Source: Patescibacteria group bacterium (GTDB taxonomy: Bacteria > Patescibacteriota > Patescibacteriia > Patescibacteriales > UBA12465). From it: 56,542 bases of DNA. Under the pieces are notes generated by a model. It made no database searches. It was not told where the DNA came from and worked only from the letters and a program-made list of their open reading frames with translations. The position numbers and the translations under genes were made by a program. How positions within the stretch are numbered: the first letter of the stretch is position 1; every line of letters begins with the position of its first letter. Shown here piece by piece: positions 18,731 to 56,542 of this stretch. The stretch covers positions 1-56,542 of the forward strand of contig JAQUWT010000006.1 of assembly GCA_028692765.1 (NCBI GenBank). Direction: 5' to 3'.

Positions 18731-18809
18731 GGTGTATCATTTTTTAAAATCATAAGCGCTTTCTTCCCTCTTGTCAATTATATTTTTATTGCCCCCGGCT
18801 TTCTTCATC

Positions 18810-18818
18810 TGCTATAAT
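18810..18818 (+). promoter_or_regulatory. extended -10 element directly upstream of the xer start codon
   Basis: TGCTATAAT 6 bp before ATG (18825). Confidence 0.5.
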
Positions 18819-18824
18819 ATTAAT

Positions 18825-19781
18825 ATGGCCGCGCAAAAAGCGATAGCTAAATATCTTCTCGATTTCCTTGATTACTCGGAAATAGAGAAAGGGCTGTCAA
18901 GTAAAACTCAGGAAAATTACACTCGTTTTTTACGGAAGTTTTTTAATTGGCTAAATAGTGCCGGCTTAGCTTCCTTGCAGCCGGCGGCTTTATCGGCCGA
19001 GCATATATGGCAGTATAAGGTCTTTTTATCGCGCCACGCCGACCCTAAGACTAAAAAAACTTTAAAGAAAAGCACACAGAATTATTATTTAATCGCCTTG
19101 CGTTCCCTCTTGGAATTTTTTGTGGAAAAAGATATTGCTTCCCTGCCGCCGTCAAAAGTAAAATTGGCCAAGGACCGGAGCGATAAGGAGATTAAATTTT
19201 TAAAATTGGAACAACTGGCCAGCTTATTGAATTCGCCGGATACGGGCGAAATTATCGGTTTGCGGGATAAGGCGATTTTAGAAACCCTATTTTCTACCGG
19301 TCTGCGCGTGGCGGAATTGGCGGCCTTGAATAGAGATCAGATTAGGATTAAAAATGTCGGTCAAGATTTAGAAATAGCCGTTATCGGCAAAGGCAGTAAA
19401 ATCAGGACAGTTTATTTTTCCGCTCGTGCGGTCAAGTCATTGAAAGCCTATATTGACGAACGCAAGGATTTCGATGAGGCTCTCTTTATCAATTATCGCC
19501 GCGGTAGCGCTGGTAGCGACCGCTCTCGCCGTTTGAGCGTGAAAAGCATTGAAGATATTGTTAAAAAATATGTAAAGATTACCGGTTTGCCGGTGATGGC
19601 TACGCCGCATACTTTGCGTCATTCTTTCGCTACCGATTTGTTGAATCAGGGGGTGGATTTGCGTACGGTGCAAGAATTTTTAGGCCATAGCAATATCGCT
19701 ACCACGCAAATATATACGCATGTGACTAATAAGCAGCTGCGCGATATCCATCGCAAGGTTCATGAAGGACGCTCTCTCTGA
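18825..19781 (+). CDS. tyrosine recombinase, XerC/XerD-like
   Basis: Start trimmed from 18771 to MAAQKA; catalytic set STGLRVAEL, HTLRHSFAT, LGHSNIATTQIYTHV; ends TGA. Confidence 0.9.
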   Translation: MAAQKAIAKYLLDFLDYSEIEKGLSSKTQENYTRFLRKFFNWLNSAGLASLQPAALSAEHIWQYKVFLSRHADPKTKKTLKKSTQNYYLIALRSLLEFFVEKDIASLPPSKVKLAKDRSDKEIKFLKLEQLASLLNSPDTGEIIGLRDKAILETLFSTGLRVAELAALNRDQIRIKNVGQDLEIAVIGKGSKIRTVYFSARAVKSLKAYIDERKDFDEALFINYRRGSAGSDRSRRLSVKSIEDIVKKYVKITGLPVMATPHTLRHSFATDLLNQGVDLRTVQEFLGHSNIATTQIYTHVTNKQLRDIHRKVHEGRSL

Positions 19782-41358: not shown

Positions 41359-41415
41359 ATTTTTTAAAAGCGTTTTTAGGCGCTGGTTTATAAGTACGTT
41401 CAAGGCCCTAGAAAA

Positions 41416-41510
41416 CAAAAAATCTGAGGCCGCCCACAGATTAAATAAAAGCCAATATTAGCTTATATTTACCTCGGCAAGACTTATTTTGACGCTTGCT
41501 GTCTGTGGCA
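41416..41510 (-). promoter_or_regulatory. ribosomal protein L10 leader RNA
   Basis: Minus strand gCCACAGACAGCAAGCG...CTTGCCGAGGT...CTGTGGGCGGCCTCAGATTTTTTG: CTTG pairs with CAAG, CCACAG pairs with CTGTGG; resembles the known L10 leader. Confidence 0.75.
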
Positions 41511-41543
41511 AATTATCAAATTGTATCTTTATCTTAGCAAAAA

Positions 41544-52356: not shown

Positions 52357-53417
52357 TTATTTCTTTAAGGATTCAGTAATTGCTTCGTAGATAGCGGCGG
52401 CAATTACCTCGTTCGTGGAGCAATCTACAATTTTACCGCCGGTGCGGTTAGTGTCATCACGGATAATAGTGTCTCCGGCCAGCACTTTTTCGAAAGGATT
52501 TTCAAAAAAAGTCGTTAGTTTCCAGCCGTTTACGCAAACAGCATGAGTGAAGGCAAAATATATTGCCTTGGCGCCTAAACCTTTAAGTTTTTTAGCGGTG
52601 CTATTGGCGGTTCCGCCGGAAGCTAATTCGTCATCAATCATGATGATGTTGGCACCCGAAATATCAACTTCGGAAATATGCTTAATCATATTGATATCAA
52701 ATTCGAACTTCTTACTGGCCGCTTGTTTTATGGCTTCTATGTCGTTTTCTCCCGCACTGAAAATTTCTGTTTGATTATTTATTTTTCTGACTTTCAGATC
52801 GAAAATAACGGCAGAGCCTTGGATTTTTTTGGCATGGGCTATAGCCCTGGGAATCGACCCTTTATCTGGAGAGTACACGAAAATATTTTCGTGTTTAGGC
52901 ACTATAGTCTTTAACGTTCTGCTAAAATCCATGTAAGCCGGGCGAAATTTGATTCCGAAACTTTCAGCCATAGCCCCCATATAATCAGAGTGAGGCACAC
53001 AGGCAATTAGTTCATCGGCGCCGGCCACGGATAAGAAATGGAGATATTGTTTTAAGTATTGAATCTCCTCTCCTTTTTCTTCGTGGTCATTTCGGCGCAC
53101 CAATATGAAGGGATTGACCGCAATGACATGAGCCGCTTTATATTGGTTTTTAAAAGCGTAGGTCAGATTAATAAAATCTAACATTGCAGTTTTTGAAATT
53201 AAGGAGTCAAAAAAACAATATTTTTTCCCTCGATATTCTTAAAATCAATAATTCTGTCGTTTGGGCATCCATCTCGCCAGGAGCCAAAATCCATTAACTT
53301 AAATTCGGGAGAACTGCCAAAAGGCTTCCCCAGGAGTTCATTCACCATTATTAATACATTCTGACCCAGTTGTTTGTTGTTTCGGCCACGGTAAAACAAA
53401 AAATTAGACATATCCAT
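52357..53417 (-). pseudogene. ribose-phosphate pyrophosphokinase-like gene split into two frames (53199-53417 N-terminal, 52357-53184 rest)
   Basis: Adding one T to the T7 run joins both ORFs into ...IEGKNIVFFDSLISKTAMLDFINLTYAFKNQYKAAHVIAV..., consistent with the PRPP synthetase family; PRPP loop MIDDELASGGTA. May be programmed frameshift, true disruption or sequence error. Confidence 0.75.
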
Positions 53418-53795: not shown

Positions 53796-54215
53796 TTAGC
53801 CGATAATGCACACATGCATGCTGAGCATTCCAAAGTCAACCTCTTCTGCTGGCACGGCGACGATTTTCCAATCCTTTCTTATGCCAATGCAATCCGGATT
53901 GGTAGCTTCTTTCCCGATTCTGAGCTTAATACTGTTCCAGAACAATCGGTCCAGGGTTTTGTTGATTAAGGGACTGTTTTGGTTCGGATCAACGGCCGTT
54001 CCATCGATTTTTGCAGATACCGGAATTTGATTATAATCATCAGCGACCTTATGTGCGGCTAAAAATGTAGCCTTTTCATAATCATCAACTTCCCCGATGA
54101 CAGTTTCATTTTCTCCGACTTCTTTTTCAACCGGGCAAACCAATTTCCCGTTTGCAAAAATTTCATTTACAATGCCAAGCATAGTCTTTTTCTGGGCTTC
54201 AACAATAGTTTCCAT
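53796..54215 (-). CDS. hypothetical protein
   Basis: Start trimmed to METIVEAQKK; terminator downstream. Confidence 0.6.
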   Translation of the reverse strand: METIVEAQKKTMLGIVNEIFANGKLVCPVEKEVGENETVIGEVDDYEKATFLAAHKVADDYNQIPVSAKIDGTAVDPNQNSPLINKTLDRLFWNSIKLRIGKEATNPDCIGIRKDWKIVAVPAEEVDFGMLSMHVCIIG

Positions 54216-54411
54216 TGCATTAAATTTTAGTGAAACATTAATTTTAAACAACTATTTATACTATAAGTATAATATACTTATATCATATAATTTAAATAAT
54301 GTCAATATTATTAAATATATAGCTATAATTAGCTATATTGTACAACATTTAACTTTTTTATTCTTATAATTTCTAATTTCAATACCCTATTACTCAATAA
54401 GCATAATTTAA

Positions 54412-54466: not shown

Positions 54467-55204
54467 TTATAGCATACCAGTGCCATCAAAAGGTTCACCT
54501 GGCAGCCAAATAGAATTATTTCCGTCTTTGCGGAAAATTACTGCTTCACTGCTTCCGCGAAGAATATATTTTTTTCCATATCCTTCAATCCAACAACTTT
54601 CCGGAAGCCCAACGACTTGCCATTCATGGTTATGAAGAATAACCTGACGTATTCTCTCTTCCCTGGTTTCACCCATGTGCTTATCCACAAGTGCTCCTGG
54701 GACAAAATGGGGATTAATTTGAAATGGCACTATCCCAAATCCTTGAGTATTTTTTATGGAATTAATGGGGCACATGTCGTTAGTGGTGATTACTGAATTA
54801 CAAGCCATCACTGTTCCGGCACTGGCGCTGATATATTTCCATTCGCCATTATCCACTTTATCTCTTATGTCGGGCAAGACGCAAGTAACCTCGCGGGCGT
54901 TTGATAATAGCCAGGTGTTACCGCCTCCAACGCAAACAGCACAAATGCTTTCATCCCTCAAAAATGAGATGCTACTCGCATAATTATGCATGCCAACAAC
55001 TTCATAACCGAATTCGCTAAAAATCTTAGCAATTAAATCGGTATAACCGACGTAATCCATGTCGGCATTGGCGTAAGGAATAAAAAGAATTTTGTTTTGT
55101 TTTCCTACTGGCTTACCGAGAAAATTTTTTAAAGATATAAGGCAATGATTCCAAAACCCACCGCCATTATACCTGGAACTACTAATTAGAAATACTTTTT
55201 TCAT
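54467..55204 (-). CDS. pepE: peptidase S51 family, dipeptidase E-like
   Basis: VGGGNTWLLSNA, catalytic SASAGTVMACNSVITTNDM, INPHFVPG. Confidence 0.82.
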   Translation of the reverse strand: MKKVFLISSSRYNGGGFWNHCLISLKNFLGKPVGKQNKILFIPYANADMDYVGYTDLIAKIFSEFGYEVVGMHNYASSISFLRDESICAVCVGGGNTWLLSNAREVTCVLPDIRDKVDNGEWKYISASAGTVMACNSVITTNDMCPINSIKNTQGFGIVPFQINPHFVPGALVDKHMGETREERIRQVILHNHEWQVVGLPESCWIEGYGKKYILRGSSEAVIFRKDGNNSIWLPGEPFDGTGML

Positions 55205-55428
55205 CGCAACAAATTTTAAGGTGAATACTAATTTCGAAACTTATGTTGTATTTTAACGTGCTAATTTATCAAAAAAATATAGCATCTAATCCCCTTTTCT
55301 GTCAATGTTTATTTTTATTATATACACTAATTATTTGTTTAAATCAAAAAACTAAGCGTAAACTGAGCTCTTCCGATTTTTTGGTAATATTAAACGACTC
55401 GTGTCGGTCTTAAGTACCAAAATATTGT

Positions 55429-55452
55429 TGGCTCCTGCGGTGGGATTCGAAC
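55429..55452 (-). other. orphan tRNA 3' end (T-loop half, acceptor strand and CCA), candidate attachment-site remnant
   Basis: Minus strand GTTCGAATCCCACCGCAGGAGCCA; no matching 5' half or T-stem partner upstream. Confidence 0.65.
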
Positions 55453-55557
55453 TAGGGGTCGGTCTTTAAACACGATTTCCCTTCTCGGTATCTAATATTA
55501 GCTAAATTATTTCCTATAGTATTCTATTCAAAAAGTTTTGAATCCGATTTCCGGTAT

Positions 55558-56337
55558 CTATTTAGTAAAATCAATAATTAATACTGTCCTATCATCCTTT
55601 GATTTAGTTGATTTGTATCGCATGTATTTATTAGGATCTTCTTTTTCAGTTATTTCGTAGGCTTCTTCCCAATCTTCGATAGATGTACCTGACGGAATAC
55701 TAAAATAGCCATCCGTAAATATTTCAATTGTCTTAATATCACTTATATTATATTCAAATGTTTTAATAAACTTTGCTGGGGTACTGGTGCCATCAATAAC
55801 ACCATAGCCTAAAGGATCCTGAGAATTATTTTGATATTCAAATTGTTTTATTAGTAACGGCATAATATACTCACGGCTGCCAGCGATATCACCAGTTTCT
55901 TCAATATATTTTGCTCTCTGTTCGGCGTTATTAACATCAACTTGCTTCACGTCGCTGAAAACATTTTGTCCATTGATTCTAAAAGAAGTATCGCCGATAG
56001 ATGTTATAACCACTTTATTATTAATTATCCTAACCGCTACTAAATAGCAAGAAAATCGAAATTTAGCATCAGATATTTCAGAAACTATTTTAAATTTTTC
56101 ATAAAGCTTAGCGACCTTATTATTTAAATACTCTATCAATTCAATGCCATTTAAATTACAGGCTAAAGTTTCATCAACTACAATTTTGGAAATAATTTCT
56201 CCGCCAGTCTGACTATTATATTCGCGGCCGCTTTTATCCGTAGCTCCATCTGTGACCACAAAGCAATCATCATTATAGCCAAAATAATCCTCATTTTTAT
56301 TATTATCTTTACCTATTGAAAAAGACTGAACTAACAT
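55558..56337 (-). CDS. PP2C-family Ser/Thr protein phosphatase
   Basis: NKNEDYFGYNDDCFVVTDGATDKSG; TSIGDTSFRI; EIFTDGYFS; SKDDRTVLIID. Confidence 0.82.
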   Translation of the reverse strand: MLVQSFSIGKDNNKNEDYFGYNDDCFVVTDGATDKSGREYNSQTGGEIISKIVVDETLACNLNGIELIEYLNNKVAKLYEKFKIVSEISDAKFRFSCYLVAVRIINNKVVITSIGDTSFRINGQNVFSDVKQVDVNNAEQRAKYIEETGDIAGSREYIMPLLIKQFEYQNNSQDPLGYGVIDGTSTPAKFIKTFEYNISDIKTIEIFTDGYFSIPSGTSIEDWEEAYEITEKEDPNKYMRYKSTKSKDDRTVLIIDFTK

Positions 56338-56338
56338 A

Positions 56339-56542
56339 TTAATATTCTTTAATAATAAATTCACTTTCGGGAATAAGCAAATACTCTAGTTTATTTTCTG
56401 GATGATCACTTATGAATTTATCCAGATTATCTTTCCATGTCTCGGAATAATGCACAAAAGAATTAATTGGTAAAAGTCCTAATCATTCTTCCCAATAAGT
56501 AGTGTCGCTTCTTGTAAACTGAGACGTCACTATATCGCCATC
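56339..56542 (-). pseudogene. 3' part of an ORF interrupted by an in-frame TGA, truncated at the window edge
   Basis: Hand translation DGDIVTSQFTRSDTTYWEE*LGLLPINSFVHYSETWKDNLDKFISDHPENKLEYLLIPESEFIIKEY; TGA at 56483-56485. Confidence 0.5.

Follow-up and report, generated by a model that had tools for sequence, protein, structure and literature searches.

The tRNA 3'-end-like fragment near the right end of the contig analysed here probably represents the core of an att-type junction at which two tandem gene cassettes meet, within an array that lies between lysS and prs, has tRNA-Gln(CTG) as its anchor and is most likely served by a serine recombinase in trans. The window, by which we mean the whole stretch of 56,542 nt, makes up the whole of contig C6 (one of 21) in a metagenome-assembled Patescibacteria genome of 880 kb (99.28% complete). 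The features discussed below are collected in Table 1.

An exact tRNA end without its tRNA

The fragment comprises 24 nt on the minus strand and reads GTTCGAATCCCACCGCAGGAGCCA. It is real and exact and did not arise by chance (0 occurrences expected from dinucleotide shuffles). ARAGORN found no tRNA across the whole window, and Rfam gave no tRNA match there, its sole match being a ribosomal protein L10 leader (RF00557, positions 41407-41526). Neither a 5' TCCTGCG strand nor a tRNA D-arm lies near the fragment, the sole TCCTGCG in the vicinity being the complement of the fragment itself, and the T-stem is unable to form because ...CCTAG precedes TTCGAAT. A preliminary description of this DNA, which read the fragment as a minus-strand tRNA end devoid of T-stem and 5' strand, was thus exact, and the likeness to tRNA-Asn that it proposed also holds: the only tRNA-Asn(GTT) of the genome, on contig C8, ends in GTTCGAATCCCACCCCGGGAGCCA and is identical to the fragment at 22 of 24 positions. 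An intron-containing or split tRNA was ruled out, no 5' half being found nearby.

No exact copy of the fragment occurs elsewhere in its own genome, and none was listed by a 23-mer search of 60 relatives; this search missed the copy in genome G006 (JAQUAK010000004.1, a Patescibacteria group bacterium representing a related species of the same genus) because that copy lacks the final CCA. The 22-mer core was present in one other genome among 84,980, namely G006, and is therefore a property of a mobile unit and no exact copy of an existing tRNA. Indeed, no tRNA in the 84,980 genomes matches the core exactly, which excludes the fragment as a copy of an existing tRNA, and the viral contigs of IMG/VR contained 0 matches to either the core or the half-site described below.

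Two independent homologies meet at this core. From 55563 to 55431 the window is approximately 85% identical over 132 bp to G006:C4:1770-1901, a unit that ends an array starting at tRNA-Gln(TTG) beside ftsX, so that the same core and arm are found in G006 but at a different tRNA locus and among different genes. From 55452 to 55339 it shows approximately 86% identity to a stretch of another relative (G010:C19) that comprises the 3' end of an intact tRNA-Asn and its flank. The two homologies overlap solely in the 22-nt core GTTCGAATCCCACCGCAGGAGC; sequences of separate histories have therefore been joined there, apparently in the manner of site-specific recombination, and this switch of partners supports the earlier view of the fragment as an integration boundary. 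The inverted motif GGATTCAAAAC of the upstream arm corresponds to GGATTCGAAC in G006. Relatives of the downstream arm were also found in the tRNA-Gln(CTG) flank of G026 and at array sites in G001 and G027; its hairpin was not scored as a terminator in our terminator scan.

Table 1. Features of the window bearing on the junction and its array.
Feature	Position	Strand	Evidence
tRNA(Asn)-like core, GTTCGAATCCCACCGCAGGAGCCA	55429..55452	-	Overlap of two independent homologies; shuffles
GGAGC, partner switch point; putative crossover region	55431..55435	-	G006 match stops here
Upstream arm, PP2C-side cassette	55453..55563	-	Inverted GGATTCAAAAC, TTTAGCTAATATTAG, GTGTTTAAAGACCGACCCCTA; G006 homology
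Downstream arm, next cassette	55339..55428	-	ACAATATTTTGGTACTTAAGACCGACACGAGTCGTTTAATATTACC and degenerate terminator-like hairpin; G010 homology
Peptidase-S51-like gene, 3' end (starts on C7)	56365..56542	-	182-bp overlap; open ORF; PF03575 on C7 part
Cassette gene, PP2C-like phosphatase	55558..56364	-	PF13672, E 1.4e-5
Cassette gene across the junction, peptidase family S51	54467..55204	-	PF03575, E 5.9e-37
Uncharacterised ORF on far side of array; cassette or array edge	53796..54251	-	No Pfam match
prs-like phosphoribosyltransferase, split by frameshift; array edge	52357..53417	-	Synteny with lysS - tRNA-Gln in G006
Only tyrosine recombinase of the genome, Xer-like	18771..19781	+	PF00589

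A cassette array behind tRNA-Gln(CTG)

The last 182 bases of contig C7 (C7:55124-55305) match, in reverse orientation, those at the right end of the window, with mismatches confined to the outermost bases of the window, and a peptidase-S51-like ORF stays open across the join. On the strength of this overlap, with its mismatches near the window end, the two contigs probably adjoin. Located on C7 are lysS and, at a distance of approximately 3.4 kb to the fragment, an intact tRNA-Gln(CTG) (52736-52807). In G006, a single contig holds lysS, tRNA-Gln and a prs homologue, approximately 14 kb apart with other genes between them, which supports the predicted gene order lysS - tRNA-Gln - array - prs.

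Starting from tRNA-Gln, the array consists of a 213-aa gene, a boundary GTTCCAATTATATCCCAAACTCCGAGC/A (the slash marking the boundary itself), a terminator-like hairpin, a 177-aa gene, a second boundary GTTCCAACTATATCCCAGACTCCGAGC/A, another hairpin, the S51-like gene, the PP2C gene, the fragment and the S51 peptidase gene, all genes being oriented as tRNA-Gln(CTG). The two boundaries on C7, both of the type GTTCCAAYTATATCCCARACTCCGAGC/A, separate single-gene cassettes. The intact tRNA anticipated to the right of the window thus lies there, on the next contig, but it is a tRNA-Gln and not the expected tRNA-Asn, and no tRNA with the exact end of the fragment was found; the integrase gene that was to accompany it is absent from the array. 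Likewise, the proposal that the PP2C gene and its neighbour are cargo is supported, whereas the single element envisaged to the right gives way to a series of cassettes that extends to either side of the fragment, the peptidase-S51 cassette being on its left.

PADLOC detected nothing convincing for defence among the cassette genes (one weak match), and we observed neither an empty site nor a circular cassette (0 in IMG/VR). Array flanks, e.g. at C7:54694, C19:2756 and G006:C4 (L104), contain a further conserved motif, GTTCGAATCCRMGTYCTGTC, immediately ahead of the next gene and 150-190 nt beyond the core. The prs-like gene of the window is interrupted by a frameshift at a T run, either real or an assembly error, and forms one frame of 351 aa in G006. 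In several assemblies a contig ends at tRNA-Gln(CTG) or shortly behind it (G005:C50, G010:C22, G022:C11, G018:C2 and our own C7), as expected if the cassettes there vary among cells.

In the mechanism that we propose, each cassette would comprise a single gene or a few genes, co-oriented with the tRNA, and would terminate in a half-site resembling a tRNA 3' end (...GTTCNAA...GAGC); a terminator would usually lie in the flank behind this half-site. Insertion of a new cassette would take place at the GAGC end of the tRNA, which would stay intact but acquire a different flank, and would displace older cassettes away from it; such movement may continue at the present day. At the junction in the window, the left half together with the core would derive from the cassette on the PP2C side, and the right arm from the cassette on the S51 side; the most likely enzyme is a large serine recombinase supplied in trans.

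Half-sites and recombinases across the order

The lysS - tRNA-Gln(CTG) arrangement is common among relatives, in which the sequence diverges directly after the GAGC of the tRNA. An array with three boundaries was found at this tRNA in G027, and contigs C17 and C19 of our own genome carry arrays at tRNA-Gln(TTG). The half-site TTCGAACWTCGTCCRCGACCCCGAGC was detected at 30 places in 19 of the 111 genomes of the order (0 with a reversed-pattern control) and, in a sample of 380 genomes covering the phylum, in just three, all of this order. The 31 aligned copies are conserved up to GAGC/A and variable behind it. A terminator-like hairpin follows 25 of 30 half-sites, against 158 of 600 shuffles (26%) and 24 of 84 upstream controls, and at all 31 sites with a preceding ORF (mechanical calls of at least 60 aa) this ORF lies on the strand of the site. 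Consecutive sites are spaced by approximately 0.5-3 kb. A search for half-sites of the GTTCCAACTACGTCCC type returned few copies, and the other array boundaries resemble tRNA-Gln only partly. An origin of the cassette flanks as decayed 3' ends of recombinase genes was rejected, tblastn being not significant.

Six places in the genome match large serine recombinases. Resolvase, Recombinase and zinc-ribbon domains, which identify enzymes of this class, are present in both of its serine recombinases tested (including the candidate on C17) as well as in that of G026. At 14 of the 26 loci checked, the recombinase faces a tRNA gene and its frame runs into the antisense strand of the tRNA, and all 14 fall among the 18 recombinases of at least 475 aa. 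Three of them belong to our genome (C8:15546-16973, C16:2099-3691 and C17:25897-27522) and 11 to relatives; the frames read 11-147 nt past the tRNA edge in antisense, so that their C-terminal residues come from the tRNA (e.g. ...DMDSNHD, ...GGIRTHD). A further recombinase gene (C17:42635-44269) crosses the half-site at C17:42658 and has its tail read from it. The stretch C17:25856-42658 is an inovirus-like element at tRNA-Gln(TTG), with a serine recombinase, a Zot-like ATPase, a LexA-like repressor and a small coat-like protein, and the serine recombinase beside tRNA-Asn carries an in-frame TGA (C8:16710-17009). No serine recombinase was found in G006, which carries the same core unit.

The preliminary description had assumed a tyrosine integrase; none was detected beyond the Xer-like enzyme, and large serine recombinases are the better candidates, one of them working in trans being in our judgement the likeliest agent. 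With 22 nt from GTTC to GAGC, the window core has the spacing of a tRNA, whereas that of the main half-site family is 27 nt; the arms of the core also belong to a different class (TAATATTAG, ACCGAC). Given these differences in spacing and arms, its recombinase may differ too. A tyrosine integrase in trans is accordingly possible for this core, although we regard it as unlikely that such an enzyme made the sites of the same array, with the inverted TAATATTAG arms as arm-type binding sites and the core as a classical tRNA-end crossover. The arms are indeed inverted and flank the core on both sides, the core has the length found in tRNAs, and such integrases adjoin tRNA-Asp and tRNA-Val in G006:C2 (L170, L171), so that both types of recombinase use tRNA genes in this family. 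Yet the sole tyrosine recombinase of the genome itself is Xer-like, the likeness between half-site and tRNA is partial, as it is between attP and attB of serine recombinases, and G026, which shares the right arm of the window, has a serine recombinase within that island.

The model put forward originally, a single element integrated into tRNA-Asn by a tyrosine integrase with the fragment as its direct repeat, has become improbable. It accounts for the near-identity with tRNA-Asn and for the match of the downstream flank to that of tRNA-Asn in G010, but the anchoring gene is tRNA-Gln(CTG), the genome's own tRNA-Asn lies on another contig beside a serine recombinase of its own, cassettes occupy both sides of the fragment and the 22-mer matches no tRNA in the genomes searched; neither an integrase within the element nor a tRNA-Asn at its boundary was found. 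About as improbable is that ordinary duplication or homologous recombination left behind a tRNA-Asn copy that has since decayed, or that the assembly is chimeric here: the two mismatches to tRNA-Asn would suit the former, and the metagenomic origin of the assembly, with contigs ending at these loci, the latter, but the same core and arm recur in the independent assembly of G006 and the switch point falls right at the end of the tRNA sequence, a position that recurs at many sibling sites.

Known systems and significance

In integron arrays, small cassettes, most of them with a single gene, point the same way, and a recombination site comes after each. The arrays described here share all of these properties; unlike integrons, they are anchored at a tRNA gene, have sites that mimic a tRNA 3' end and lack a detectable IntI. 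A true integron with attC sites is, despite its unidirectional single-gene cassettes with a site behind each gene, extremely improbable, as the half-sites are tRNA-like and followed by terminators, not R''/R' pairs (attC compared by eye), and the genome has no second tyrosine recombinase able to be IntI besides the Xer-like one (judged from the recombinase count).

The kind of locus is already known: additive flexible genomic islands occur at tRNA genes, e.g. fGI-2 of Ca. Methylopumilus, in which the repeats are the last 20 nt of tRNA-Lys (PMC10872708). As in these islands, an intact tRNA stands at one end, several direct tRNA-end repeats separate variable genes of mostly unknown function, and relatives differ at the same tRNA. 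In contrast to them, the repeat is not identical to the anchoring tRNA (the window core is Asn-like at a tRNA-Gln locus), the conserved half-site is only partly tRNA-like, genes run with the site, terminators are present and there is an association with large serine recombinases. Tycheposons, as known from Prochlorococcus and Methylophilaceae, encode a tyrosine recombinase and span 4-200 kb (PMC10872708); they too hold cargo behind a tRNA gene, but our cassettes are often 0.5-3 kb in size and without a recombinase, and no tyrosine recombinase lies beside the tRNA. Inoviruses have been reported in CPR bacteria (PMC6813254), and the element on C17 (Zot-like, LexA-like, with a large serine recombinase at tRNA-Gln(TTG)) resembles these and serine-integrase prophages; here, however, the recombinase gene runs into the antisense strand of the tRNA, and cassettes that lack the enzyme employ sites of this kind as well.

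Our literature search found no paper describing such a system. As far as this search shows, the conserved half-site, the one-way single-gene cassettes, the restriction to a single order and the link to serine recombinases are new. We tentatively suggest, at somewhat less than even confidence, an integron-like system of one Patescibacteria order, in which unidirectional single-gene cassettes would enter at tRNA-Gln and tRNA-Asn via tRNA-mimicking half-sites, served by large serine recombinases in trans; the genes of these enzymes would run across their own attachment sites, and insertion would thereby exchange the C-terminal tail of the enzyme for tRNA-antisense residues.

Patescibacteria have very small genomes, and their uptake of genes is poorly known. 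A defined, lineage-specific site would allow mobile cassettes to be listed in metagenomes and the entry of genes to be tested directly. If serine recombinases do the work, this would be a cassette system with a chemistry other than that of integrons.
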